Below are positions 40,372 to 63,300 of a stretch of DNA of 64,000 nucleotides, piece by piece. Source of the stretch: Sarcomyxa edulis (taxonomy: Eukaryota > Basidiomycota > Agaricomycetes > Agaricales > Mycenaceae); the NCBI GenBank assembly GCA_009761415.1, contig QUOL01000004.1:558001-622000 (forward strand), in the 5' to 3' direction. Below the pieces are notes generated by a model. That model worked only from the letters and a program-made list of their open reading frames with translations. It had not been told where the DNA came from and searched no databases. The position numbers were made by a program, and so were the translations under genes. Positions within the stretch are counted from its first letter, which is position 1. Every line of letters begins with the position of its first letter.

Positions 40372-41265
40372 TCAAGCAGAGTGAGTTTTGAGCGACGAAG
40401 GACCTTGCGAGATGCCAAGATCTCTGAGCGTTCCTGTGCCCAGCTCGTAAACCCATCCGTGCACCCAAACTTCCTTCCTCTCCCCGTGTGCAGTCATCTC
40501 CCCTGCCTCTGCCCACGCGTTCAGAATGGTGCGCGCTTTGCAGAGTTTCTGGACTTGCACTTTGACATTCTCTTCTACTAGAATAGGGAGAGCTTCGTCC
40601 ACTGGAGTAGAAGAGAGGTGGAGAGATGCTGCCAAGGTAGTCAGGGGTGCCAACCAGATGTTTAAGGGGTCGTCTGGAGGGGATGAGGGTACTGTGACTA
40701 CAGGAATAGTCAAAGGTGATTGGGCTGCTGTGAAGCAGGATGTCGCGCCTCCACATTCAGTGTGGCCTACGATTATGACTGTGGATAGGTCGGGGGAGAA
40801 GCAAAGGAGTGACGGTTGGAATAAAGCTGATAACGGAAAAGGAGATAGATAAAGCACCGTGTTCGACACCCAAATGCTCTACAGCGTATCCAAGGACGGC
40901 GAGAGCGCTCGGGTCGTCCAAGTTGAATTGGCTGTTCAGCATCAGGTGTCAGAAGTGGTCGAGATAGATGAAAGAGAAGTGCGTACTTTGCAATGTTCCT
41001 ATGAACGAAGACGTCTCCTGGCCTAGAACCAGTGATGACTGACTCGGGGACTCTGGAGTCAGAGCAACCTATCCAAAGGATCTTTGCAAGTGTATTTAGC
41101 TGCGAGAAAACAGGAACGTGCGACAATATCACTGACCTTTGGAGATTGTCCCTCCGCGCACTTTGCAAAGAAGCCAGGCTCGTCTTGTTCGACGTCAAGG
41201 GCCCACTGGGCGTTGGAAGAGAGAATCCGGGAAAGAGTTGGGTTATCAAGAGGTTGGAGATCCAT
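40372..41265 (-). CDS. Beta-class carbonic anhydrase
   Basis: Start [43 protein letters not shown] at 41265, then [33 protein letters not shown] with the first zinc-binding Cys and the Asp-Arg dyad (CSDSR). The next exons carry [39 protein letters not shown], with the remaining zinc ligands His and Cys (HTECGG). The C-terminal part reads [42 protein letters not shown] and [20 protein letters not shown], all usual for fungal enzymes. It interconverts CO2 and bicarbonate; no signal or presequence is seen, so cytosolic. About 230-240 residues. A TATA box is 61-68 nt upstream. Confidence 0.94.
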
Positions 41266-43698: not shown

Positions 43699-43703
43699 AA
43701 AAA
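43699..43703 (-). terminator. RNA polymerase III terminator of tRNA-Phe
   Basis: Five T residues on the minus strand begin four bases after the discriminator base of the tRNA, the usual Pol III stop. Confidence 0.6.
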
Positions 43704-43707
43704 CAAG

Positions 43708-43789
43708 TGCCAGAACCGTGGATTGAACACGGGACCTTCAGAAGACGAATAACTTCAGTCTGCTGCTCTCCCAGCTGAGCTATTCCGGC
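43708..43789 (-). tRNA. tRNA-Phe(GAA) with 9-nt intron
   Basis: On the minus strand the gene reads GCCGGAA ... TTCTGGC plus discriminator A, which pair as a 7-bp acceptor stem with one G-T pair. The D arm is GCTC ... GAGC, containing the A box TAGCTCAGCTGG. The anticodon loop is CTGAAG with GAA at positions 34-36. The T arm is CCGTG TTCAATC CACGG. Nine bases (TTATTCGTC) after position 37 are a canonical-position intron; without them the tRNA is 73 nt. One anticodon-stem pair (27-43) is G-A, so tRNAscan scoring is worth running. Its 5' leader and 5' half are the parent sequence of the neighbouring satellite. Confidence 0.85.
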
Positions 43790-45298
43790 TTATGGTTCTG
43801 ATCACAGTCTTGCAGTGACAGAGCACTCAGCCCACTACTCCCAAATCACTATAGTGATTTGAACTCACCGCTTCAGCTGCTGCCTCCCAGCTGAGCTATT
43901 CCGGCTTATGGTTCTGATCACAGTCTTGCAGTGACAGAGTACTCAGAATAATCCCAGCTTCTTATTCCACTCACCCCTTCAGCTGCTGCCTCCCAGCTGA
44001 GCTATTCCGGCCTATGGTTCTGATCACAGTCTTGCAGTGACAGAGTACTCACACAACTCACCAATCTCAAATCACTATAGTGATTTGGACTCACTCCTTC
44101 AGCTGCTGCTTCCCAGCTAAGCTATTCCGGCTTATGGTTCTGATCACAGTCTTGCAGTGACAGAGTACTCAGCCCACTACCCTAGCTTTGGTTCTGATCA
44201 CAGTCTTGCCGTGACAGGGTACTCAGAATAATCCCAGCTTCTTATTCCACTCACCCCTTCAGCTGCTGCCTCCCAGCTGAGCTATTCCGGCCTATGGTTC
44301 TGATCACAGTCTTGCAGTGACAGTGTACTCAGCCCACTACTCCCAAATCACTATAGTGATTTGAACTCACCCCTTCAGCTGCTGCCTCCCAGCTGAGCTA
44401 TTCCGGCCTATGGTTCTGATCACAGTCTTGCAGTGACAGAGTACTCACACAACTCACCAATCTCAAATCACTATAGTGATTTGGACTCACTCCTTCAGCT
44501 GCTGCTTCCCAGCTAAGCTATTCCGGCTTATGGTTCTGATCACAGTCTTGCAGTGACAGAGTACTCAGCCCACTACCCTAGCTTTGGTTCTGATCACAGT
44601 CTTGCCGTGACAGGGTACTCAGAATAATCCCAGCTTCTTATTCCACTCACCCCTTCAGCTGCTGCCTCCCAGCTGAGCTATTCCGGCTTATGGTTCTGAT
44701 CACAGTCTTGCAGTGACAGAGCACTCAGCCCACTACTCCCAAATCACTATAGTGATTTGAACTCACCGCTTCAGCTGCTGCCTCCCAGCTGAGCTATTCC
44801 GGCCTATGGTTCTGATCACAGTCTTGCAGTGACAGAGTACTCAGAATAATCCCAGCTTCTTATTCCACTCACCCCTTCAGCTGCTGCCTCCCAGCTAAGC
44901 TATTCCGGCTTATGGTTCTGATCACAGTCTTGCAGTGACAGAGCACTCAGCCCACTACTCCCAAATCACTATAGTGATTTGGACTCACCGCTTCAGATGC
45001 TTTGTTCCAGCTATGGTTCTGATCACAGTCTTGCAGTGACAGAGCACTCAGCCCACTACTCCCAAATCACTATAGTGATTTGGACTCACCGCTTCAGCTG
45101 CTGCCCCCCAGCTGAGCTATTCCGGCATATGGTTCTGATCACAGTCTTGCAGTGACAGAGCACTCAGCCCACTACTCCCAAATCACTATAGTGATTTGGA
45201 CTCACCGCTTCAGCTGCTGCCTCCCAGCTGAGCTATTCCGGCCTATGGTTCTGATCACAGTCTTGCAGTGACAGTGTACTCAGCCCACTACTCCCAAA
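43790..45298 (-). repeat. Tandem array 1 of tRNA-Phe 5'-half satellite
   Basis: About 15 copies (hand count of GGTTCTGATCACA) of units of roughly 55-125 bp. On the minus strand most units read: leader (CTGTCACTGCAAGACTGTGA, TCAGAACCATAA), then tRNA-Phe bases 1-37 (GCCGGAATAGCTCAGCTGGG ... CTGAAG) with two single-base deletions relative to the intact gene, then a variable spacer. Three spacer types recur: one with the palindrome AAATCACTATAGTGATTT, one with CAATCTCAAATCACT, and one with AATAATCCCAGCTTCTTATT. A short unit without the tRNA half (CCCTAGCTTTGGTTCTG, with TTGCCGTGACAGGG) also recurs. The copy nearest the tRNA is the functional-looking gene itself. Each tRNA-containing unit keeps the Pol III A box but not the T arm or B box. 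Confidence 0.9.
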
Positions 45299-45301
45299 TT
45301 A

Positions 45302-45334
45302 CGAGTCCTTATGTTTACATAAGATAGACTCGTT
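45302..45334. repeat. Terminal hairpin of the inserted segment
   Basis: ACGAGTC and GACTCGT pair, and inside them CTTATG and CATAAG pair around TTTA. This gives a 13-bp stem with a small ATA bulge, two bases from the left end of the segment. A further copy of GGACTCGT lies at 54464-54471, about 35 bp from the right end, in inverted orientation to the first arm. Confidence 0.6.
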
Positions 45335-46139
45335 CTTCACTCCACACAGGGCCATTTCTTAACCCCCCCCCCGTAACGAAAACCGTCGACATGTGGGAAA
45401 GTTGATGTCATTGATGTTTTTTGAAAAGTTGTATTGAATACGGAGAACTCCGCTTCAGTTTGTAGTCTTTTTCGGCTGTTGCCGGGCCTTTTACTGATAC
45501 TTTTTAATGTTCATTAGATTGTTGAGAGCCAACTCGCGGAAAGTGGGTATATATGGAAATATCCGAGTTCCGACGGATATACTTCCCTGTGGTTCCAAGT
45601 TCGAATCACGTTGTGAGACTTTTCTTTTTCTTTCCTTTCTTTGATCCTGCGCATTCTGAGTTTGTGTTTGGAAGATGGCATACTACTCATTAAATTTCCA
45701 GATCATCAAGGACTAGGATGTCTTACGTTGTGGTTTGACCAATGGTGTTGAAACTTAATTGGCCTTGTTGGACAAAAACAAAAACAAAAACAAAAATGGC
45801 TATGCAATGATGTAGTTGCTGTCTTTGGATGGTGAGCGCTAGTTGTATCATAGTATCTTTCGGTCTGTATCTGTCCAGGTGCTTGAGTGTGTTATTAGCA
45901 ATAAACAAGTTTACTCAGGAGTACTCTGTGTTGGAAGTATAATTGTATCTGTGCAAAATGAGGGTAGGTCCTCCATTCTGACAACATGCTAAATAATGGT
46001 ATCTGAGTTCTAGCGCTTGGTGAACAATCTGAAATCGAAGCGAAAAGGTTTTGGGATTCTGAAGTTTTTGGCACTTTGCAGGTGATCAGGTCTGTAGGGT
46101 CATGCAAATTGTATTGGCATTTAGTTTGATCGTTGTTAA
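45335..46139. repeat. Repeat-type sequence with a B-box-like motif
   Basis: No gene. A run of ten C lies at 45363-45372. AAGTTCGAATCACGTTGTGA (45598 on) followed by a T-rich tract, and TCTGTATCTGTCCAGGTG (45863 on), both recur in the same order at 46333 and 46498. The two stretches are thus diverged copies of one repeat. GTTCGAATC resembles a Pol III B box. Confidence 0.5.
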
Positions 46140-46332
46140 ATCAACCCTTGGTGTTGGAAAATTGAGTGTTGTGTTTGAATTGAGTGTTGTGTTCAAATCG
46201 AGTGTCGGTGTTCAAATCGAGCCTTGGTGTTCAAATCGAGTGTTGTGTTCGAATCGAGCCTTGGTGTTCGAATCGAGTGTTGTCTTCAAATCGAGTGTGG
46301 GTGTTCAAATCGAGCCTTGGTGTTCCGATGGT
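46140..46332 (+). repeat. Minisatellite of about 20 bp unit
   Basis: Eight to ten units alternate between GTGTTCAAATCGAGCCTTG and GTGTTCGAATCGAGTGTT types. Two overlapping open frames across it give repetitive peptides (for example ALVFESSVVFKSSVGVQIEP) and are by-products of the repeat. It runs directly into the second copy of the GTTCGAATCACGTTGTGA repeat. Confidence 0.75.
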
Positions 46333-48453
46333 TCTACGTTCGAATCACGTTGTGAACTTTTTTCTTTTTTTTCTTTTTGAAGTTCTTGTGGATTCTGGAT
46401 TTCTTCTGTTCAGAAGGTAGCTACATCTGAAATATAACCTTGATTTTGTGAAAAAAAAATTGAATAAATTTCTTCTGTAAAAGCCAGTACCTTTTGCTCT
46501 GTATCTGTCCAGGTGATCGAGTGTGTTTGTATTGCATGTGTAATGTTGGGTGCAAGTGAAGCTCTTGCACCTATCTTGCTTTTCCCTCAGTCAAGTTGAA
46601 TTATGTATGTTTCTAAAAGTGGTTGACTGTTGCGCAAACCTTTTTGCCCTGCCCAAAGTCTGCCTCACCGGCCTTCTCGGCGTTCTTGAGGTCACATGAC
46701 ATATCTTTGTGCTCATTGTTGGACGTGACAAGAACATGTTTTGACTTGATTCTCCGTATCTCTGGGTTCATGCAATGCTTATAAATGCATGTTTCAACCC
46801 CTAAGGGGCCCAAGAATGTGTATACAGGCAGGAGCAAGGATGTCTATAGATTAAAGGACCTTGTAATATGCTGCAAGAGGTCAGGGGTTGGTGAAGGAAT
46901 AGTACAGTATTCCAAAGTTGTGAAGGACAGACATAAAAGATAAAGGAACAGGAGGGGTAGGTAACTCTGCATCTAAATGATCTGTCCCAGGACGAAGTTC
47001 TTGGCTATAAGCTCAGGAATGTTTAGACTCTGGAAACCAGTAGAGATAAATGAAATAAATCCAGGAGTATTCCTGGATGCAGATAGACAAAATGAGATAA
47101 CTCACAAGGACAGTATCAGCCATTGCCTGACTTAGAGGCTCTATCAATTAACTCTGGAGCATCTAAAGAGATGAGGGCTAGTCCAGATTTGCTTGTAGAA
47201 GAACTAAGAGGGGTTGGGTGATGGTAGGTGCAGGGGAATGCTTACCTTACCTGATAAGGGAGCTCTGGAACTTTAGAACCATATGGACAGGCAGTGAGTA
47301 ATGATATATCCATCTTTTACTAGAATTTAAGTATCAGTGAGAGGCTCCTTGAAGGCTGAGAGCTTGAGAAAATCAAAAGGAAGATTGAGAATCGGAGATA
47401 TAGCCTATAGACAAGGAAGATTTGCTGAGGGAAGAGAATTAGAGTTGAACAGAGGCCAGAGTAGGCTAGCAGAGGACTCAAGGAATGTGAGTTGTTTGGT
47501 CTAATGGTCAACTTTTGCGCTCATTGTTTATTTTGTGCTTGTATAGGAAATTTGTGCAATAAACTAATGGGCAGTGAGTGCATAGTCAATAGCCCAGAAT
47601 TGATACTAATTGTGGGATTTCCATGTATTTCCAGATGTTGGTAAAAAATATACTCTGTCTGATAGGTGAGTAGCAAAGCTGAGAAAACACTGAGAAAACA
47701 CCAAGAAGATGTTCAGGAAAAAATGAGAAATAGTGCATGCTCATTTACAGTGCTTAACCATTTCATATCCACCTATATTTGTTGTCAAATGAATTTCCCT
47801 CCAATTCAAAGCATAAGCTCTAACACTATGACACGCTGTAGAGGTACTTTATGTATTTTTGATAAACTGTATTGCAGTTGTGCTCGAATCGAGTTCAATT
47901 CTCGATTCGAGCGCAACCGCAATGCAAAAAAATGTCTGCAAAAATATCATGGAATTTATGCACTGGCTGGATTCGAACCTGTGTGAAGGCGTGAGCTTGA
48001 ACCGATCACGTGATCGATGACGTGCGAACAAGTGTACTCCACAAAACATACACTCGTTCGCACGTCATCGAACCACGTGATGTATTCGAGAAGAAAATAA
48101 CTGCGCTCATGCAGGATCGAACTCGGACTCTTCGGTCATAATACCGAGAAACTGACAACTTGACCACTAGTCTACAAGATCACATGACATTTTGAACATT
48201 TCGTAATCACATCCTGGGGGGTGTCTCCTATGCCAATATAAAAAAACATTGTTCTAACAGGCTCTAAGAAGGTCTAGTTGCATGCAGGTTATGTGTATAG
48301 TCTAGATGGTGTAGCCAAATATACAAGTGTATGATTTTACTTGTACACTTGTTTGCAGATCATAGGTTACATGACATATCACGTGATGTGTCATGTGTCG
48401 CATTGTTGAAAAGCTGTGGAGCTTCTTGTTTCATATTTCACTCCCCACTCGTC
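46333..48453. repeat. Gene-free repeat-rich stretch with hairpins and tRNA-like fragments
   Basis: A second copy of the B-box-like repeat occupies 46333-46530. The next kilobase shows nothing I recognise. A perfect 12-bp inverted repeat (GCTCGAATCGAG, 47882-47893, with 47901-47912) has a 7-base loop. A longer one (CGATGACGTGCGAACAAGTG, 48016-48039, with 48048-48070) has one or two mismatches. Minus-strand tRNA-like boxes occur at about 48100-48175. The DNA just before 48454 (TACACTTGTTTGCAGATCAT and CACGTGAT) repeats parts of the inverted repeat. Confidence 0.5.
48105..48175 (-). repeat. tRNA-derived SINE-like or tRNA pseudogene fragment
   Basis: On the minus strand TAGACTAGTGGTCAAG resembles a Pol III A box, and GAGTTCGATCCTG a B box, spaced about 50 bp as in tRNAs. 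Between them is TCGGT-ATTATG-ACCGA, an anticodon-arm-like hairpin. The acceptor ends do not pair, so it is not a functional tRNA. Confidence 0.45.
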
Positions 48454-49099
48454 ATGTCCACCCCCGGTCATCTTCTTGACAAATGGACTCACAGACATGA
48501 TATTCAGTGTATCCAAAGAGACTACTTAGCCACAACTGACAAAACAACTCCTGAGCAACTCCAACGCTTTATTGAAATCGATGACGCAACTCGGAAACGT
48601 GGAGTTGGGGTAAGTTTTCCTCCGTCTTCGAGATATGAGCATGATTTGTGATGTATACTAGGATCCCCCTTGCCTACGCAGTTATGCCGTTCTCCCTGCT
48701 GAATTCAATCCTTTTGGTCGGGAACCAGAACATGCGACCTATATACGTGCACGTTATTTTGGTGTAGGCGTGACTGCCAAAACCATCATACGGACCGCTT
48801 CACGTATGAACGTCAGAATTGCCCGTATCGACTCCACTAGCACAGTCACTACCTGGCACATGGCCCTGTTGACAGGTCAAAACATCGCCACCGTTTTATC
48901 GAAGATATGCCGGCACCCTATAAAGTGCCGGTGGGTTGCCAGTGGACACGCGACCTACGCATTCACTATATTTAGCAACTACGACCCAACTCCAACCGCT
49001 CCCCTCAACAACGACAAACAAATGCTCATTGCAATCATACAAACATTTCTGGGCGTCGAGAAGTCACCAGAGTGGTATTTTGAAGGGTATGCCTATTGA
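48454..49099 (+). CDS. Orphan protein, 197 residues, inside the inserted segment
   Basis: Two exons with a clean 52-nt GTAAGT...TAG intron (48610-48661). The protein starts MSTPGHLLDKWTHRHDIQCI, continues LQRFIEIDDATRKRGVG, and after the intron DPPCLRSYAVLPAEFNPFGR, YIRARYFGVGVTAKTIIRTA, TSTVTTWHMALLTGQNIATV, ICRHPIKCRWVASGHATYAF and ends WYFEGYAY. I do not recognise the family. It is not low complexity and keeps frame across the intron, so it is likely real. It could be cargo of the inserted element or a mobile-element accessory protein. There are no membrane spans or signal peptide. Confidence 0.6.
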
Positions 49100-52000
49100 T
49101 GTGGTGGTTTTATCGTTGGTATTGACTGATTGTGCAACGGTAAGATAATTTCTCAATACTATATGTGTGTGTTCATAAATAACTAACACATTGTCCTAAA
49201 TTTCAGTGGGAGATGATTTTTGTTTAGTATGCATAATGACATTTGGTTTTGAGTGAAGGTGTTATTGTATGGAAATTCATCAGAGATAATTTGATTATAA
49301 CACGTACCATTTTTTTGGATTCTCCGTGAGCACAAATGCATCCAGATACAGCACCGGCCTCACATTGAACACGCATGCTGATCCAAAATGATGAATAAAT
49401 TCAGAAATCATCCAATTTTACAGTATGACTTTCTAAAACTTGTAATTTGTGGTCTAAAATGTTTGATTGTGCTGCAATGGAATGGCAGAACTCCAATTGT
49501 TCTGCTGCATCACTCTTGAAGAACTGGTTCACATAGAACAACCCCAATGTTTGTGTCTAGGTAATCAGAATTGTTCAAATGTATTGAATACTTAAAGCCA
49601 AGGGGGTGCCGGCTTCTGAGTTTTGCTTTCAGACCCACAGAGCGGACCTACCTACGTCATAAGCAGCACATGGTCTACAAATTGCCTTATTGGGAATTCC
49701 AATCACCCGGATCACCCCTCAACTATAACAATGGCCCTACCGGGCAGGCCTGGACACTTCGGTATAACTGAGGAAAGGTTGTGTGCACGGCAAAGCCCCG
49801 CACTCCCCCATGAATGCCTCATTTTTGTCAAAATGCAACAAACTGAGTGCGGTAACACCCTCAAAGCTTTGGGAGCTTACCCATTTCAGTGCATCTATCT
49901 GCAAAGGGTAAGATGGGATATTGTACAATCTACGTTGAGTACACTGCAGTATTGTAATAGGTGTTGGGATCCTATTGGCTTGACTCCGGAGAGATACCAG
50001 TACTTAACGTATACAACAAGGGGACACAGGACGGTTATAAACAGGTAAATTGCTAGGGGACAAACACATAAGAAACAGGTATTCCAACTCGGAGTATGTG
50101 CAGCTATCTACAGAGTAGTACAAACACTAGTAAATACTTGGGTGGCAGGTAGCAGCACGCACACCAAGTGTTACTCCAATATGCAGGACATGACCCGCAC
50201 AGCTGCCTTTGAGTCACTCTACCTCCTGCCAAATGGGGGTGTAACCTTGTTCCAATGTTCCTACATCGGAGTTCGGATGTATTGTTTGCCTCCGTTGCCA
50301 TAAGCTTCCATCGCCGTACTTACCTACCTTACTTTACCACCACCACCATCATTACTGTGGTAGAAAATGTAATCCGCGTATGGACGAGAAATCGGTCGTC
50401 TCAAGCCAAAATGGTGCTGAGTAGTAGAATACCTATATAACCGAATAATCAGCAAATACAGAGTATAATTGAAACAAACCTAATTGATCCACAAGCAAGT
50501 GGACTTGAATTGAGGTGGGATAAGGAAGATATCCAGCAGGGAGGTCGACGATGAAAGACGCATAGTGAGCGTCGAGTCCTATCGTGTTTCCTAATCGGGA
50601 AACTGTGATAGCTGGCGGCTTCGGGTGCTTTGAATCAGGAGATATGAGTGAAATTGAGGGAAGATGAATGGAGAGGGTTTGAGGACGAGGTCTTCCACGT
50701 CCGCGTCGTTCAGTGGGAGAGTCAGAACGGTGGTGGGAGAAAGAAGGAAGGTAAAGTTTAAAATAAGGGTGGCTGTGCTTCGCTTTCTGTATGACGCCGG
50801 GTGCTGAATTTAAGGGTACCTGTAGGGGAAGGGGTTCAGCAGCAATAGACAGTAGATGAAGGCTCAATATATATATTCTCGGGGCTCTTGTAGCTCAGTT
50901 CTTGCTCCAGGTGGTATGGCTCGGGACTTCTCGAGTCAACTGGTGAAATCCAAGGTAAGAGGAGATAATCTTCATTCGAAGGCCGAAGTAAGCCTATAAG
51001 TCTAATGGTACGGAGGGTGGGATGTGTGCACGCGTACTCTCGCATCACCAGGGCCCTGGAATGTGGTGTGTAATATGATAAGGGAATTTCGATAAAATGT
51101 GAAATGAAGTTGAAATAGTTGCGGCGCGAGATAAGAGTGATATAAAATTTGGTTGTCCATGTTTTTGTAGGTGGAATAGTGTCTGTTTTATGTGAAAATA
51201 AAATCGAGAATATCACGCGGCGCGTTCCCCAAGATTCCGCCAAGGGAAGAGAGTCTTGGATGAGTAAACACAACAGAGTCTGGCGCACAAACACTGCCCC
51301 CCAACAGTATGGCAGCACGGACTAGTGTGGACTCATCTCCCCTTGGTTTTGTTTTGGAGTAGCAACCGCTTGACAGGCTCGAGCGAGTGGAAATGATGGA
51401 TGAAGGAATGATTGTAAATTGATGAAACTATGAAGAAATCCGAATTTCAGTATCTGATAAGTGCCAGGAACGTACTAAGCAACGAGAATGGTCTATACCC
51501 GGGCCATAGAACCTGCTAAACCATTGCGGCGCGTAGTCTTGACGAGTGTGAGAGGATATGTAGTGCGATGGCGAAGAGGAGGCTGTGATGTGGTCGTGTT
51601 TGGCTGCAGCTTCCGCGCTAGGACGGGACTTGGGTGTTTTGAATCTCTCGAGCGCCTGCATAAAAAGAGAGGCTCGAGCTCATCAAGTTGGTGTAGCAAT
51701 AGGGTAGAGAATCAAGAACAATTCAGAATAATATGAAAATTGAGAAAATCCGGTATCCATTGGAGAAGTAGAAGAAAGGCAGTGATTCTGCGATTTGTAA
51801 AGTAAGTCTGGGCATCTCTTGTCAAGCGGATCGACGAGGAGCCCATTTTTCCCTTCCACATCACCTCTTGCTATTTTCGAATATCAAACATTTGTCCTGT
51901 TTTGTCTTTCTCCTTTGAGTATCGACACTCCAAGTGTCTTCCAGGGGGGTGGAGATTGCAATCTATATTTGACACACAATCTGCCTCATTCTTCTTCAGA

Positions 52001-52209
52001 CTACAGCTAATAGGAACATCTCTAGATTTCCTGAGAATACTTGTTTCTTGGACTACAAAGCCACTAGACGTTAGATTCACTGGTGGTGGTCCCAATCCAG
52101 AGGCTCTCTGTTTTGTTGTGTTCTCATCAAGTCAGATTGTTTTCTCTCACGCCTCATCCAGGGACTATACACCAACATCAACAATCTTCTCGTTATTCTC
52201 TCTTGTACT
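49100..52209. other. Gene-poor stretch of the inserted segment
   Basis: About 3 kb with no gene I can support. Open frames of 140-160 codons on the minus strand (50433-51318) and one on the plus strand (49623-50048) have no recognisable features and no clear introns or homologous motifs. The composition is unremarkable. Confidence 0.4.
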
Positions 52210-52626
52210 ATGACAATGAATAGCGAACATCACCCCAAATTCAAGGTACATACATCACATGTGCACCTTTAGGACATCAATCTGACTAAATTCAAGATTG
52301 GGGATTATGCATGGAGACGAGACGGAATTTCTCATACGTGGCATTGGTCAAAGATTGCTGCAGTCCACAAAGATGAATTTATGGTATGTAAGATGTTGTT
52401 TACTGTGTTTGACAACTGATACGCAAACATGAGATAGGATATTTTCTCGTGGGCGTACACTGTGCACAATATCTCGGGTTTTACAAGCTGCTGTCTGGAA
52501 TCGGAGCTTCGACACCCTACATTTTTTCCATTGCAGAAAAAGAAGGCTAAATGTAGAGTGTGGGATAAAAACACTGCTCAGTATGCACTTGACCATATTG
52601 ACAATTTAGCTGGGTTGTTACAGTAA
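52210..52626 (+). CDS. Possible small orphan gene, about 112 residues
   Basis: The start is MTMNSEHHPKFK (52210). A very short 27-nt GT/AG intron is followed by DINLTKFKIGDYAWRRDGIS and HWSKIAAVHKDEFM. A second intron is followed by DIFSWAYTVHNISGFTSCCL, and the end is KKKAKCRVWDKNTAQYALDH. The pieces stay open across both introns, but the 27-nt intron is shorter than usual for these fungi. I do not recognise the protein. Confidence 0.35.
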
Positions 52627-53308
52627 TTTGTGTTATCAGCAGCAATACATTATATTGTCTGCAGTAAATCTCATTCCTCAACTAGAAAAGGTTATCCCGA
52701 CAAAGAGAATAGGATCAGGAGATCCTTGCTGCTGGCAGGCTTGACCACTTTGCTGGCGCATGACACGTGATGTCACATCATGCAAAACGCGCAAGATAAA
52801 AATGAAGGGTGTAATGGTCAGGCTAATGCCGGTCCATTACACCCAGTTTGTTACTCCGATAGTCAAACCCGTCACACTCTTATCTGATCGCCAGCTGTAC
52901 TTTTCTTTCTCTTTGTCTAATCAACGCTAGTAATTGGCACTTCTCAGTATCGAGGACTCTAGCTAAGTTTTCCTTGACTTTGTTGCTAGTCTGTTACACC
53001 AGACTCTCCCTCTATTTTCCATTCTCGGTGCCTTGCCCGTTACAAAGGGGAAAAGGAAAAGGTAGGTACAGATAAGTAAGAAGGAAAGAAAAGAAAAGAA
53101 AAGAAAGGAAAATGTATAGTAGATTGTCCATTAAGGGGAGTCCTTACACCACCCCAACAAATTCTTATGGTGCTTTCTCTGGGTCCCAGGTGTTAGAACT
53201 CAGGGGGAGTCTTACCACCTGAGTCAAACACAACCACATAGCTTACCGTTGTCATGTCTGTTGTCACTCCTTAGTTACTTGTTGGAAGGTTAACGTCGGT
53301 CCGCATCA
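52627..53308. repeat. Intergenic with hairpin and AAAAG microsatellite
   Basis: GGGTGTAATGG (52807-52817) and CCATTACACCC (52834-52844) form a perfect 11-bp inverted repeat with a 16-base loop. An (AAAAG)n-like purine tract lies at about 53082-53112. No gene is seen. Confidence 0.5.
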
Positions 53309-53725
53309 TCAAAGTTCAACATCAGGCTCAGGGTGTAAGCTTGTTGCATCTGTAAATTGAAGCTGTAGACACTCTTGGCGGCGTATAAGGTCAAAATCAG
53401 CTACAAGGTTGCTGTCAAGTTGTTCACAATGAGAGTGGCCTGCTTTGGGAAGGAAATGCTTTTGCTTTGAGACAGCCTTTTTGACAAAAGAGACATGAGC
53501 TCGAGCGGACGTGGATTTTTGGCCAGAGGGTTTTGACATAGCCAAGGAATGAGAGAATGAGGATGTAGCAGTGGGCAATGAAGAACACTCAGATGGAGAA
53601 GTGTTAGTGAGAGAGCCAGAGGAAGAGCTGGACAATAAGGTGGAACTGGAAAATGTTTTAAAGCGACGGCCTGGAGATATGCACCTATTCTTCCGTTTCC
53701 TAGAGCCTGCATCAGGAAAATGCAT
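53309..53725 (-). CDS. Doubtful Ser-rich open frame, 138 codons
   Basis: A single frame starting MHFPDAGSRKRKNRCISPGR, rich in Ser with basic patches (KKAVSKQKHF). It has no known domain and no introns. It might be a fragment of a mobile-element accessory protein or noncoding. Listed for completeness. Confidence 0.2.
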   Translation of the reverse strand: MHFPDAGSRKRKNRCISPGRRFKTFSSSTLLSSSSSGSLTNTSPSECSSLPTATSSFSHSLAMSKPSGQKSTSARAHVSFVKKAVSKQKHFLPKAGHSHCEQLDSNLVADFDLIRRQECLQLQFTDATSLHPEPDVEL

Positions 53726-54505
53726 TTTTCCCTAGAGCACCCTGAGGGTAAGCCAGAGCTTCTCAGAGCTTCTCAGAAATCCCAGAGCTTCAGAGCATTC
53801 AGAGCTTATTCAGAGCAACCCCAGATAACCTCAGTGCCACCCCAGATAATCTCAGTGCCTGTCTGATCTATTGAGTGCAGTTTAGAGCTTTTGGAAATCT
53901 CACATTTTCTTGCATGCAAGTCAAGTTTTATTCAATCAAACACATATATTCATAGTCTCCCAATACATGATAACTACAAGAGACATAGAACAAGAGAGGA
54001 AATAGTAGGGAAAAGGGTGGAAATAGTATAGGGAGGTGAAAAAAGGTTGGGAGATGGTGAAAAGAAGTAGGAGGAGGTGGGAAAAGGTGAAAAAGAGATG
54101 GGGGAGGGTGCAAAAGGGATAGGGGATCTTTGGATTCCCCTCTGTTGTTGTGCAGGTTTTTTGCCTTCTTGAGGTTGCCCTTATACAAACCCTGAACTTG
54201 AAATTGTGAATTTCTTAAGAAAAAAAAAAAAAAACATCAACATGTTACTGTTACACTACAGCACTACAGCCCTATACAATATATGGCTAACAACATATAC
54301 CCAATACTATGGTTTCTATTTAGTACTACCAATCTATCATTGTAGAAATGTGTATATAAGTCAAACAAAAAGTCTATGAAGAAAGGAAACTTGTCAAACA
54401 AACTAACTGGTGATACCGTAGACAAAAGTAGCTTTTCCAATCAATCTTTCCATAAAAAAAGCAGGACTCGTGTATGCCATGCTTGCAATGGCCCGCTTCC
54501 GCAAG
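53726..54505. repeat. Low-complexity right end of the inserted segment
   Basis: Short direct repeats of CAGAGCTTCTCAGAG and CCCAGATAACCTCAGTGCC types occur at 53755-53875. Purine-rich GGTGGGAAAAGG-like repeats follow at 54000-54110, and a 16-A run near 54219-54234. GGACTCGT near 54464 is the inverted partner of the left-end hairpin arm. Confidence 0.5.
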
Positions 54506-57415
54506 TCACTATAGTGATTTGAACTCACCCCTTCAGCTGCTGCCTCCCAGCTAAGCTATTCCGGCTTATGGTTCTGATCACAGTCTTGCAGTGACAGAGT
54601 ACTCACACAACTCACCAATCTCAAATCACTATAGTGATTTGGACTCACTCCTTCAGCTGCTGCTTCCCAGCTAAGCTATTCCGGCCTATGGTTCTGATCA
54701 CAGTCTTGCAGTGACAGTGTACTCAGCCCACTACTCCCAAATCACTATAGTGATTTGAACTCACCCCTTCAGCTGCTGCCTCCCAGCTGAGCTATTCCGG
54801 CTTATGGTTCTGATCACAGTCTTGCAGTGACAGAGCACTCAGCCCACTACTCCCAAATCACTATAGTGATTTGAACTCACCCCTTCAGCTGCTGCCTCCC
54901 AGCTGAGCTATTCCGGCTTATGGTTCTGATCACAGTCTTGCAGTGACAGAGCACTCAGCCCACTACTCCCAAATCACTATAGTGATTTGGACTCACCGCT
55001 TCAGATGCTTTGTTCCAGCTATGGTTCTGATCACAGTCTTGCAGTGACAGAGCACTCAGCCCACTACTCCCAAATCACTATAGTGATTTGGACTCACCGC
55101 TTCAGCTGCTGCCCCCCAGCTGAGCTATTCCGGCATATGGTTCTGATCACAGTCTTGCAGTGACAGAGCACTCAGCCCACTACTCCCAAATCACTATAGT
55201 GATTTGGACTCACCGCTTCAGCTGCTGCCCCCCAGCTGAGCTATTCCGGCATATGGTTCTGATCACAGTCTTGCAGTGACAGAGCACTCAGCCCACTACT
55301 CCCAAATCACTATAGTGATTTGGACTCACCGCTTCAGCTGCTGCCCCCCAGCTGAGCTATTCCGGCATATGGTTCTGATCACAGTCTTGCAGTGACAGAG
55401 CACTCACACAACTCACCAATCTCAAATCACTATAGTGATTTGAACTCACCGCTTCAGCTGCTGCCTCCCAGCTGAGCTATTCCGGCCTATGGTTCTGATC
55501 ACAATCTTGCAGTGACAGAGTACTCAGAATAATCCCAGCTTCTTATTCCACTCACCCCTTCAGCTGCTGCCTCCCAGCTGAGCTATTCCGGCCTATGGTT
55601 CTGATCACAGTCTTGCAGTGACAGAGTACTCAGAATAATCCCAGCTTCTTATTCCACTCACCCCTTCAGCTGCTGCCTCCCAGCTAAGCTATTCCGGCTT
55701 ATGGTTCTGATCACAGTCTTGCAGTGACAGAGTACTCACACAACTCACCAATCTCAAATCACTATAGTGATTTAGACTCACCCCTTCAGCTGCTGCCTCC
55801 CAGCTGAGCTATTCCGGCTTATGGTTCTGATCACAGTCTTGCAGTGACAGAGCACTCAGCCCACTACTCCCAAATCACTATAGTGATTTGAACTCACCGC
55901 TTCAGCTGCTGCCTCCCAGCTGAGCTATTCCGGCTTATGGTTCTGATCACAGTCTTGCAGTGACAGAGTACTCAGAATAATCCCAGCTTCTTATTCCACT
56001 CACCCCTTCAGCTGCTGCCTCCCAGCTGAGCTATTCCGGCCTATGGTTCTGATCACAGTCTTGCAGTGACAGAGTACTCACACAACTCACCAATCTCAAA
56101 TCACTATAGTGATTTGGACTCACTCCTTCAGCTGCTGCTTCCCAGCTAAGCTATTCCGGCTTATGGTTCTGATCACAGTCTTGCAGTGACAGAGTACTCA
56201 GCCCACTACCCTAGCTTTGGTTCTGATCACAGTCTTGCCGTGACAGGGTACTCAGAATAATCCCAGCTTCTTATTCCACTCACCCCTTCAGCTGCTGCCT
56301 CCCAGCTGAGCTATTCCGGCCTATGGTTCTGATCACAGTCTTGCAGTGACAGTGTACTCAGCCCACTACTCCCAAATCACTATAGTGATTTGAACTCACC
56401 CCTTCAGCTGCTGCCTCCCAGCTGAGCTATTCCGGCTTATGGTTCTGATCACAGTCTTGCAGTGACAGAGTACTCAGAATAATCCCAGCTTCTTATTCCA
56501 CTCACCCCTTCAGCTGCTGCCTCCCAGCTGAGCTATTCCGGCCTATGGTTCTGATCACAGTCTTGCAGTGACAGAGTACTCACACAACTCACCAATCTCA
56601 AATCACTATAGTGATTTGGACTCACTCCTTCAGCTGCTGCTTCCCAGCTAAGCTATTCCGGCTTATGGTTCTGATCACAGTCTTGCAGTGACAGAGTACT
56701 CAGCCCACTACCCTAGCTTTGGTTCTGATCACAGTCTTGCCGTGACAGGGTACTCAGAATAATCCCAGCTTCTTATTCCACTCACCCCTTCAGCTGCTGC
56801 CTCCCAGCTGAGCTATTCCGGCCTATGGTTCTGATCACAGTCTTGCAGTGACAGTGTACTCAGCCCACTACTCCCAAATCACTATAGTGATTTGAACTCA
56901 CCCCTTCAGCTGCTGCCTCCCAGCTGAGCTATTCCGGCCTATGGTTCTGATCACAGTCTTGCAGTGACAGAGTACTCACACAACTCACCAATCTCAAATC
57001 ACTATAGTGATTTGGACTCACTCCTTCAGCTGCTGCTTCCCAGCTAAGCTATTCCGGCTTATGGTTCTGATCACAGTCTTGCAGTGACAGAGTACTCAGC
57101 CCACTACCCTAGCTTTGGTTCTGATCACAGTCTTGCCGTGACAGGGTACTCAGAATAATCCCAGCTTCTTATTCCACTCACCCCTTCAGCTGCTGCCTCC
57201 CAGCTGAGCTATTCCGGCCTATGGTTCTGATCACAGTCTTGCAGTGACAGTGTACTCAGCCCACTACTCCCAAATCACTATAGTGATTTGAACTCACCCC
57301 TTCAGCTGCTGCCTCCCAGCTGAGCTATTCCGGCTTATGGTTCTGATCACAGTCTTGCAGTGACAGAGTACTCAGAATAATCCCAGCTTCTTATTCCACT
57401 CACCCCTTCAGCTGC
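54506..57415 (-). repeat. Tandem array 2 of tRNA-Phe 5'-half satellite
   Basis: About 27 copies (hand count) of the same satellite as array 1, in the same orientation and with the same unit types. Blocks of about 396 bp starting CCCTAGCTTTGGTTCTG recur near-identically at about 56210, 56711 and 57107, and the same order occurs at 44180 and 44576 in array 1. The array therefore has higher-order units. It ends abruptly within the tRNA-half segment (TTCAGCTGCTCCCCAACTGA). Confidence 0.9.
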
Positions 57416-57826
57416 TCCCCAACTGAAGGCATATTGTTCTATACATCTTACTTAGGACACAGTATGTCTATTACACTATAGGCTGGTCTAGTATGGACAT
57501 CACATAAATTTTGGGGTCAGCATTCAGTGTAGCCAAGATTTGATGTGAACTCTAGGAATTGCCACAATCCAAATGCGGAAGTCAAGACGGCGATGGACAT
57601 CAAGCGTCAATAGACTCGGCACCGCCACCGACCACGACCAAAATATGTAGCAACTCGAACTTGAACTAAGCTACCCACTAGGTGCCGGCTCAAGCGCCGT
57701 CTAAACACCTGACTTGGTCTGTCCCCAAATACTGAACACACGCACGCTGTTGTAGTATTCACTATCTGGCCCTTAAACATGTTCATTACAATGTGCGTAA
57801 TATTGTCAGTCACGCCCGCAGGTGCC
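57416..57826. other. Gap between array 2 and orphan gene
   Basis: No gene is seen. Minus-strand text near 57630-57700 (TAGTGGGTAGCTTAG, AGTTCAAGTTCGAG) weakly recalls tRNA A and B boxes but does not fold as a tRNA. Confidence 0.35.
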
Positions 57827-60398: not shown

Positions 60399-63300
60399 TT
60401 AACTGTAAATACCCAAGTCGCACTTGCGCTCCGTGACAAGGGACAAATACTCCAACCTGTTATCGTCGTCTCTCAGGTCTTCGGAAGGATGCTTCGTAAA
60501 TAAATCAGGGTCGAATTGTCGTAGAAGCCTGATTGTCCCTCGTCCTCGACTCCTGGAGAGCGCGACATACACGCTGAAAGGGGTCAATGCCCCTTGAGGA
60601 GGTGTTCCAATATCGACTATTACATATTCAATTGTCTGTCCTTGCGACTTGTAGTCCGTGAACGCGTATCCTCCAGTCAGCGCTAATTGAAAACGTTTGA
60701 TCGTTTTGGAAGATCCGTCAGGCATCTTGATCGTGAACTTTGACGACGACGGAAACACCGGCAAGATCCCAGCGTCCAAACCGTCAATTTTAATCGAGTT
60801 AGGCATCAAAGGTTTGAAAAGTATCATCGCCGGAGGATACTTCAAATGCGTTATGTTCGTCTCGGGATCTGGAGCAATAGGTCCTTCTCGTCTATCCAAA
60901 ATGATGTCGGTTATTTCACCGCGAGTCCCGTTCGCAAGGTCGGCTTCGGACGAAATATTCAAAGTGACCATCACTTTCATACCAACGGCCAATTCCAGAT
61001 AATCAGGAAGTTTACCGGCAGCTTTTCCTTTCAAACGAGCAGTGTAAACTTGTTCTTCGGTAGTTAAGGCTCGACCTGTAGAGCTCACTGTGTCCTCAGA
61101 CTTGCACGAGTAAAGCGCGTTACCAGTCAGTTCGCAGTGCTGGACCAATTTTTTGTGGTTCCATTGCGTTCGGACTGAATGGCGAGGAGTGATTAATATC
61201 GCGTTGCGCCAATTTGGGTCCGTAAAATCTGGGACGTCGCAAGAGTCCGAGTCGATGACGAGTTTGCGGATCTCCACTAGATCGTTTTCAGTGCATTCGC
61301 CCACCCGAGAGCGCTGTAGAATGTCGCTCCACACAACATCGGTGACACGCATTTGTTCCCTAAGAGTAATCACCGTTTCGAACTGGAGGAAAATTGATCT
61401 CCCCAACTGTGAACGTTCTGTAGAGCTTCTCGGACAGTACAAAGCCCCGCTAGGATTGGAGACAGGAGGAAATTGGTGAAAGTCGCCGAAGAGAATCACG
61501 TTCATCCCACCAAACGGTAAACCAGCGTCGGTACGATTAGCGGCGGCACGAATGCCACCTCCAATTTCAGATGTACAAGCCAACAAGTCTTTGGTGGCCA
61601 TAGACACTTCGTCCATTTCGAGATACTCTTTTGAGAAATTCCTTTTCCGCCTTTCGAGCACCTCAGGACTCCCGGAAATAGCCCAATTTGCTTTGGATGG
61701 CAATTTGACACCTAAACCAGCAAACGAGTGAAGAGTTTGACCGCCGATTTGACTGGCGGCAATACCGGAAGTGGCAGTTTTCGCGAGAATGTTCGTCGCT
61801 CTATACCTGGCAAAAGTAGCGTCAATAGCAGAAATCAATGCAGATTTTCCGGTGCCCCCTTGACCGAGGACAAGCATTAGCAGTTGTTTCGGTTTCCGTC
61901 CCTCAAGGTGTGCCACCAAATGATTCTCTACAATGTCGTGCGCCCTTTGCTGGTCGACGTTCAATTCGAACGGTTGCCGAACTGTGAGATCGACAGATAA
62001 CGGTGTCGACATAGTTGTGTGTTCGGTTACCGCTGGTGCAATGTCGATTTGCATAGGGTTGGATCCAATTGTCGAAATAGATTCACCACTATTACCCGGA
62101 TCAATAAGGGGATGTAAATCTTCAACGCCCTTCAAGGCGGACATCCAATCCGGGAAATTTTTGTACTCTTCTGCGGAGGCGCGACGGGCATTGGTTCCCT
62201 GGGCAGGACAAACAGGTTGACCGGGAAACATGTTGTTGTCAGCGGCTATATTCATGGCCACTTCACCATAATACATGTCTCTTGCTTCATAACGATTGTC
62301 TCTTGCAGATTGAACGTCTTCGTCCGTGTACTCTGGAACATCGTGAGAATTTACAACATGGTCGGATCTTTGATATTCTTCCTCCAACAAAGCCGCCGCG
62401 CCAATGTCAACAACAGAATTGTTCACCATGTCTTTGTCCACGGTTCGATTCTTCGACCCATCGGAGCACTCGTGGAAATATTGGATGTTATCCAGCATAG
62501 CGTGAGTGGAAATATTAGCAGCATCTTTGAAGCGAGCCAGGCTGTCTTGCAAAGATTCGCAGTCGCCAAGGAGATCTTCCAACCGCCTCCATGGCTTCAT
62601 CATGGCAAGAACCATAGCCGCATACCGATCACCAACTTCTTGTCTATCGTTCCGAGGGAACCAAGTTCCAATGAAGCAAGGCATCATTTCGTGACCGGCG
62701 CCTCTGATCACGCGGCAGCTTTTCTCCCTTCCACAGCCAGGGATGTACGGAACGCGCTCGCTCCGACGGCGGCCAGTTCTATCGTCATCTGTGGCCTTGT
62801 TTGATCTGTCGTACGTATTGACGAAGTAATCCAGAAAACTGGAGTTTTCGAGGGCAAACCCACGGTCGGCGTATTCTCTAAGCTGGTCTTTCAGTTCGAG
62901 CACACCGTGAACCATAGCCAACCTAGACACGTTGTCCTGTAATGAAAATGAAGCGATACAAATAGTCCGAAAAGCTTAAACAACTCACAACATTGTTTTG
63001 TCGAGACGATTCATAGCGTACGCCGTCCGGTGCGTTGTTTGCGTACCCGGGTCTAAATAGCGCATAGCGTTAGCGGGCACGAACGGGCGGAATACATTGC
63101 ACTGACGTTACGTGTCTCAGGCCAGGGTAAACTGTCTTCAGCGCGAACATGAGACTGTCGAGATAAATGTGGACAAAATGATGGGAAATAAATCGATCAC
63201 CCCAACCCATCAAATAGCTAATCACTTCCGGGGCACTGAATTGCTGCTGCCTGCCCAAGGTGTTCGCACACCGTTCTATCATCCTACGATTCAACAGTGC

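Follow-up and report, generated by a model that had tools for sequence, protein, structure and literature searches.

The extra TFIIIC (ETC) sites of yeast are single and driven by a B box, and satellite I/OAX of Xenopus is a tandem satellite with A- and B-box-like motifs for which transcription by RNA polymerase III (Pol III) has been shown. Here we describe a satellite array whose units carry the leader and the first half of a tRNA-Phe gene, and which lies directly upstream of an intact tRNA-Phe(GAA) gene in a 64,000-base stretch of the genome of the basidiomycete Sarcomyxa edulis (contig QUOL01000004.1, positions 558,001 to 622,000; hereafter the window). Like ETC sites, the units carry part of a Pol III promoter without belonging to a functional gene; unlike them, they keep the A box and the leader and mostly not the B box. 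They share the tandem arrangement and the A- and B-box-like motifs of satellite I/OAX, but are tied to their parent tRNA gene and are known here from sequence alone.

SINE-derived satellites (sSats; SINE, short interspersed element) have been described in squamate reptiles (PMC10702118). As portrayed in the parts of that report drawn on here, sSats resemble the S. edulis arrays in being tandem repeats of a portion of a Pol III-type sequence, in their repeated independent origin and in their modest copy number. Their parent, however, is a dispersed SINE, and sSats are likely subtelomeric (PMC10702118). Here the parent is a tRNA gene still attached at the 3' end, and the tRNA-Phe arrays lie >200 kb from contig ends. 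Classification as a SINE-derived satellite was rejected, since leader and exon 1 correspond to the tRNA-Phe gene next to them and the genome search gave no dispersed copies of them. Tandem duplication of tRNA genes has been discussed for animals (PMC4981973) and, in the passages considered, likewise involves local tandem copying followed by concerted evolution. The copies described there are whole genes or pseudogenes (PMC4981973), whereas dozens of tRNA-Phe copies here stop at the anticodon loop and one gene is intact. With one intact tRNA-Phe gene per array instead of several, the arrays were not classed as a tRNA gene cluster.

The S. edulis genome paper counts 143 tRNAs, and it counts tandem repeats and minisatellites in passages that make no mention of these arrays (PMC8281127). 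In the open-licence literature, covered mostly through titles and the starts of abstracts, we found no satellite of one tRNA exon kept upstream of its parent gene. In S. edulis a satellite built from the first exon of an essential tRNA family appears to accompany that family at all nuclear loci found, and this link has apparently outlived the surroundings of an old duplication. This makes it testable whether broken tRNA halves are debris kept alike by exchange or working parts of Pol III promoters.

Truncated units upstream of three tRNA-Phe genes

ARAGORN identified a sole tRNA in the window, tRNA-Phe(gaa), at 43707-43789 on the minus strand. A permissive search with the Rfam tRNA model scored 50.8 bits at 43708-43789, and a whole-window Rfam scan at the gathering score listed no family, the tRNA included. 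Upstream of the gene and on the same strand are 41 truncated units in two blocks of 14 and 27, and Tandem Repeats Finder (TRF) reported ~116-bp arrays plus periods of 106, 120, 222, 342 and 396 bp within 43863-45299 and 54502-57374. The ARAGORN call, the TRF periods and the unit count bear out a sequence-only reading of this DNA, which had placed dozens of units of leader plus tRNA 5' half beside an intact tRNA-Phe(GAA) gene. Both blocks belong to a single array interrupted by a ~9.2-kb insertion, because the left block stops (CCCAAAT) and the right block resumes (TCACTATAG) inside the same unit palindrome.

The array is one of three. We searched a genome assembly of 35,647,914 bases in 40 contigs, in which the window belongs to the contig labelled C34. 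A query of leader plus tRNA gave at least 119 matches, all of them (119/119) within the arrays of three tRNA-Phe loci, and a unit pattern allowing up to three mismatches gave at least 78 matches, 78/78 at the same loci; both counts are lower bounds. The loci are the window, C34:222,976-226,592 (hereafter C34:226k) and C38:1,073,445-1,079,883. Searches with the tRNA only and with a 5'-half pattern (two mismatches) found three tRNA-Phe genes, each the last element of one array. A match at C14:224446 was left out of this locus count, and a divergent fourth tRNA-Phe gene could have escaped the searches. The arrays hold 41 (window), 34 (C34:226k) and 56 (C38) truncated units, 131 in total. Every array lies on the 5' side of its tRNA-Phe gene, with one intact gene per array, at the 3' end.

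The satellite had first been described as local. That description was not supported: each of the three tRNA-Phe loci has an array, so that uniqueness of the window array was rejected, and a small array occurs at another tRNA gene (below). A tRNA-derived SINE or dispersed repeat was also rejected, given the 119/119 and 78/78 matches in tRNA-Phe arrays. The sequence-only reading of a satellite made of leader plus tRNA-Phe 5' half was supported over a SINE, as every match of the genome search with the unit fell in the tRNA-Phe arrays, and the parent is the adjacent tRNA-Phe gene.

The arrays are satellite DNA, with head-to-tail copies, higher-order periods and homogenisation within each locus. 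For 112 of 117 units of 98-125 bp (of the 131, those <98 bp were left out of the clustering), the nearest neighbour, ties included, is in the unit's own locus, and no identical unit among the 117 is common to the three loci. The arrays are most likely an old partial duplication that has grown into a satellite. It is unusual for a satellite to be tied to every copy found of one essential gene.

A typical unit consists of a linker, a leader of ~33 bases, and tRNA nt 1-37 minus two bases, including the A box and the GAA anticodon (in CTGAAG). Exon 2 is absent from the arrays, where its best match has 17 mismatches in 35 positions, a level equally reached in shuffled arrays. Neither GAGAGC nor GCAGACTG is found in any unit (0/131), and both strings are present in all three tRNA-Phe genes. 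The string GCAGCAGCTG, in which the anticodon-stem A is lost, is kept in 114/131 units; the remaining 17 are without it. The earlier description of the units as leader, A box and GAA anticodon without the 3' half therefore stands, but not as a faithful copy of the tRNA, because two bases are lost and GAGAGC occurs in none of them. Both losses are common to units of all three arrays, so the units seem to form a family of their own with a single founder unit, carrying both losses, behind all the arrays. Conversion by the intact gene has not mended the losses.

The two missing bases would break the D stem and shorten the anticodon stem, making a tRNA fold of the units unlikely, and they speak against processing of the units into tRNA halves. 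The sequence-only reading had suggested, as speculation, that the units could titrate TFIIIC or give rise to tRNA-half-like RNAs. Judged by the lost bases and the lost exon 2, the units can be classed as truncated tRNA pseudogenes that most likely make no tRNA. The A box matches the TRGCNNARYNGG consensus in 103/131 units; the 28 units without it are the 101-105-, 54- and 52-bp types, in which part of the segment is missing. By strict match, the A box is accompanied in 25/131 units by a B-box-like match of the GTTCAAATC type, placed 34 nt from where the A box starts. A SINE with head, body and tail was rejected on this count as well, since the A and B boxes occur together in few units and the units run head to tail without a tail.

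Relation of the loci and partial copies at other tRNA genes

Two of the three loci appear to be related beyond the array. Downstream of the tRNA-Phe gene of the window lies a beta-carbonic-anhydrase gene, and a colinear paralog lies on the same side of the tRNA-Phe gene at C34:226.5k, with 76% identity over 892 aligned bases. The annotation was supported by Pfam (Pro_CA, 5.8e-13 on one exon piece, weaker on two and none on the fourth) and by matches to solved carbonic anhydrases. A 341-base query from this gene, of which 122 bases matched, found just two places, the window locus and C34:226k. The paralogs differ at 47/100 four-fold sites (235 aligned codons, with block ends that run slightly into introns). 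Divergence (dxy) between the arrays of the two loci amounts to 0.010 for the leader, 0.026 for exon 1 and 0.160 for the linker, and the two tRNAs are identical over 90 bases. The DNA between the carbonic-anhydrase gene and the tRNA aligns between the loci in short pieces only.

The window locus and C34:226k are apparently old segmental duplicates. If so, either the arrays are older than the duplication and have stayed similar through exchange or selection, or an array of later date moved between the loci via the shared tRNA gene. A recent mobile module with unrelated flanks was dropped for these two loci because the longer comparison showed the colinear carbonic-anhydrase paralog.

Three units of 150 bp, each made up of a leader and tRNA nt 1-37 with further sequence, lie immediately upstream of another tRNA gene, at C34:467,764. 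The tRNA part of these units has two single-base losses and two substitutions. ARAGORN called the tRNA Ile(gat) with an odd intron; the anticodon loop TTTAAGT and the long variable arm led us to assign it to Leu(TAA). An array of the same design, ending again at nt 37, was counted in favor of duplication within the gene.

We also searched for partial copies around other tRNA genes. The control tRNA list has 56 rows. We omitted the 17 rows on C24, C26 and C31, contigs taken to be organellar from their size and tRNA sequences. Of the 39 other rows, 37 served as query loci (flanks of 1.5 kb for 17 and 0.8 kb for 20); C1:2225936, inside locus L027, and C34:2408779 were left out. The set was extended by four of five further loci, for which the flanks covered ~0.75 kb upstream and 0.1-0.2 kb downstream; L081 gave no tRNA and was dropped. 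The list is a lower bound, as 63/1249 candidates were scored and the tRNA-Phe genes themselves were missed.

At E 1e-4 in 41 non-Phe loci, same-strand partial copies upstream were 5' parts (four copies at two loci, Leu-TAA and Arg-TCT) and those downstream were 3' parts (six copies at five loci, three Leu-AAG-like and two Asn-GTT). Reversed same-strand copies, with a 3' part upstream or a 5' part downstream, were not found in these loci at that threshold. Opposite-strand matches occurred at L022 and L027, the latter matching a whole neighbouring tRNA gene. At E 1e-3, short of this standard, L024 also has a 15-nt 3' copy downstream. Such a direction rule follows from tandem duplication with one end inside the gene, which leaves the intact gene last or first. 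As it draws on about five independent families, the rule is no more than suggestive. It also provides an easy means of detecting, in other genomes, tandem duplications that begin or end inside tRNA genes.

Some of these loci have further features. The tRNA genes L058, L059 and L060, of which ARAGORN called two Leu(aag) and one Thr(agt), are closely similar to one another. Downstream of each lies a stretch common to all three, behind which the 3' end of the tRNA occurs again (20-34 nt, 97-100%) at ~+250 to +325 from the tRNA start. At the tRNA-Asn(GTT) loci L078 and L079, the 3' half, B box included, is present in additional copies beyond a T run that follows the gene. Separately, tRNA-like pairs ~365-370 bp apart were seen at C1:4116k, C3:1229k, C19:273k, C33:10k and C35:5k, and one of a pair at C32:0.3k. 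Those on C1, C3 and C19 are near a contig end and possibly represent a subtelomeric tRNA-like repeat.

Origin of the arrays

The arrays probably arose by tandem duplication within the gene, decay of the fold of the broken copy, growth by unequal exchange, and concerted evolution. If the right breakpoint of such a duplication fell within an ancestral tRNA-Phe gene, close to where exon 1 meets the intron, the intact gene would have ended up at the 3' end, with a truncated copy comprising leader and exon 1 upstream of it. This truncated copy would then have lost the two bases that are missing in all three arrays, which broke the D stem and kept the A box. Unequal exchange would have amplified it into arrays with locus-specific higher-order repeats, in line with the observed periods and clustering. 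The tRNA-Phe gene with its array would have come to three loci, two apparently within the old segmental duplication, and exchange between loci may keep the arrays alike, with or without purifying selection on leader and A box. Under this origin, the units may bind TFIIIC/TFIIIB weakly as a by-product, with no needed function.

Several points weigh against duplication within the gene. The original breakpoint is invisible, and the linker after exon 1 might once have held the intron and exon 2. The C38 locus showed no similarity to the other two loci in flank comparisons. The direction rule draws on few families (Phe, Leu-TAA and Arg-TCT upstream; Leu-AAG and Asn-GTT downstream), and the flanks examined for it were no longer than 0.8-1.5 kb. 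That leader and exon 1 diverge so little can point to function and not to exchange alone. Finally, the evidence comes from one genome, that of S. edulis.

Function is the core of the main alternative, an unlikely one, in which the units are a maintained Pol III loading platform. They would keep the TFIIIB-binding leader, start region and A box, recruit TFIIIC/TFIIIB, and boost or insulate tRNA-Phe; transcripts could possibly read through into tRNA-Phe, the long 5' leader being removed by RNase P. Conservation is consistent with such a role. Among the 81 of 131 units that are 110-125 bp long (others were left out of the column counts), 8/68 columns of leader plus exon 1 are variable vs 25/47 of the linker (Fisher 2e-6). 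A single highly variable column, the base immediately preceding the tRNA, separates leader from exon 1 and was excluded from the count. Units were chosen by leader similarity, which favors a conserved leader, and homogenisation could explain part of the pattern. Exon 1 was not used in picking units, and by itself it has 4/35 variable columns vs the same linker count (Fisher 1.3e-4). The sole variable column within the A box of these units (C/T) falls at an N of TRGCNNARYNGG. Conserved leader and A box leave binding of TFIIIC/TFIIIB possible, but many units lack the A box, and few have a B-box consensus after it.

A scarcity of TTTT on the tRNA strand would also suit read-through. The two window blocks and C34:226k have none, vs 3.3, 7.5 and 11.0 expected from base shuffles, and the C38 stretch has 3 vs 15.3, one of the three inside counted units. 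As proof of read-through this was set aside as weak, because the units are near-copies and give few independent observations. The tRNA-Leu(TAA) units do carry T runs (T5 and T8). The association of array and gene, which outlived the flanks of the old duplication, also fits a platform; the 9.2-kb interruption of the window array does not. A stronger version holds that every tRNA-Phe gene is driven through a selected array of crippled half-genes, which would act as Pol III pre-initiation platforms and, with terminators avoided, feed complexes or transcripts to the single intact gene, and that the same has begun at tRNA-Leu(TAA). We regard this version as doubtful, with a small chance of being correct; if true, the selected half-gene platforms would be a multi-promoter architecture for a tRNA gene.

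It is improbable that the units yield functional small RNAs, whether these resemble tRNA halves or hairpins. The palindrome of the 116-bp-type tRNA-Phe unit folds as an 8-bp hairpin (z-score -1.86; -1.07 for the 106-bp type), and the tRNA-Leu(TAA) unit, with its T runs, folds into a long hairpin (-2.07). These z-scores are modest, however, the lost bases break the tRNA fold, and no Rfam family was found in units, either across the window at the gathering score or inside the arrays in the permissive window search. Matches elsewhere in that permissive search were the tRNA, a 19-bit tRNA-like stretch, and microRNA-type, SNORD20 and BTnc201 matches, these last three types below cut-offs. At L067 and L071, the permissive Rfam search returned only the tRNA.

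A selfish origin would likewise be surprising, whether from a tRNA-headed SINE or from an element that targets tRNA genes for integration and leaves them restored. The presence of array plus tRNA at three loci could suggest one, as could a shared palindrome core. The palindrome of the tRNA-Phe units has 86 copies in their arrays (the 86 other forward matches of the pattern), with relatives at the edge of the tRNA-Leu(TAA) array and at C34:443,954. The linker of the tRNA-Leu(TAA) unit has a relative at C34:444k, 23 kb away and in the same place as this palindrome relative. Against a selfish element, the two genome searches gave no dispersed copies, the units have no tail, flanks at array edges are unlike beyond pieces of units, a 116-bp unit is too short for recombinase coding, and segmental duplication with the neighbouring gene better explains the window and C34:226k. 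Palindromes similar in sequence to CAAATCAC-4nt-GTGATTTG recur beside tRNA-derived repeats on C34, at L067:295-465 (C34:467.3k) and L071:850-1160 (C34:444k). Tandem arrays are error-prone in assembly, but an artefact is very improbable, as the long-read assembly is described at 150x in the portion of the genome paper considered (PMC8281127) and the three arrays differ in unit types, orders and flanks.

Layout of the window and the insertion

Boundaries within the tRNA-Phe gene were placed at position 37/38, which we take to be the standard tRNA intron site.

Table. Positions of the tRNA-Phe gene, its array and neighbouring features in the window
Feature	Position	Strand	Basis
beta-carbonic-anhydrase gene, exon pieces, downstream of tRNA-Phe	40384..41265	-	Pfam, solved structures, paralog alignment
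T5 run just 3' of tRNA-Phe, expected Pol III terminator	43699..43703	-	sequence
Exon 2 of tRNA-Phe, carries the real B box, not found in arrays	43708..43743	-	Rfam, array search
tRNA-Phe intron, 9 nt, presumed boundaries, not seen in units	43744..43752	-	sequence, Rfam
Exon 1 (nt 1-37) of tRNA-Phe(GAA), the part repeated upstream	43753..43789	-	ARAGORN, Rfam; presumed exon/intron junction
Proximal array block, 14 truncated units, types 116/120/106/101/54 bp (leader + exon 1 + linker)	43790..45299	-	TRF, sequence, unit count
~9.2-kb insertion splitting the array inside the CAAATCACTATAGTGATTTG palindrome of one unit	45300..54505	.	sequence
Distal block of this array with 27 truncated units; degenerate at its far edge, end ~57427 judged by eye	54506..57427	-	TRF, sequence, unit count

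The insertion sits between A and T, with an inverted repeat (GAGTC...GACTC) close to its left end and no clear target duplication seen at its edges. The A/T target is presumably Helitron-like, but the usual Helitron ends are missing. No stop-to-stop frame of 200 aa occurs within 45300-54505. TRF identified ~nine copies of a 19-bp repeat at 46134-46325 (consensus AAATCGAGTGTTGGTGTTC), which contains the B-box-like GTTCAAATC; another such motif and a T run come after it. Hairpins at 47862-47933 and 48005-48081 gave sub-threshold matches to microRNA families in the permissive Rfam search, and the 19-bit tRNA-like stretch lies at 48104-48181. Beyond the array, window positions 60399-62975 hold an open frame of 858 aa, in which Pfam recognised a PIF1-like helicase domain (E 2e-23).

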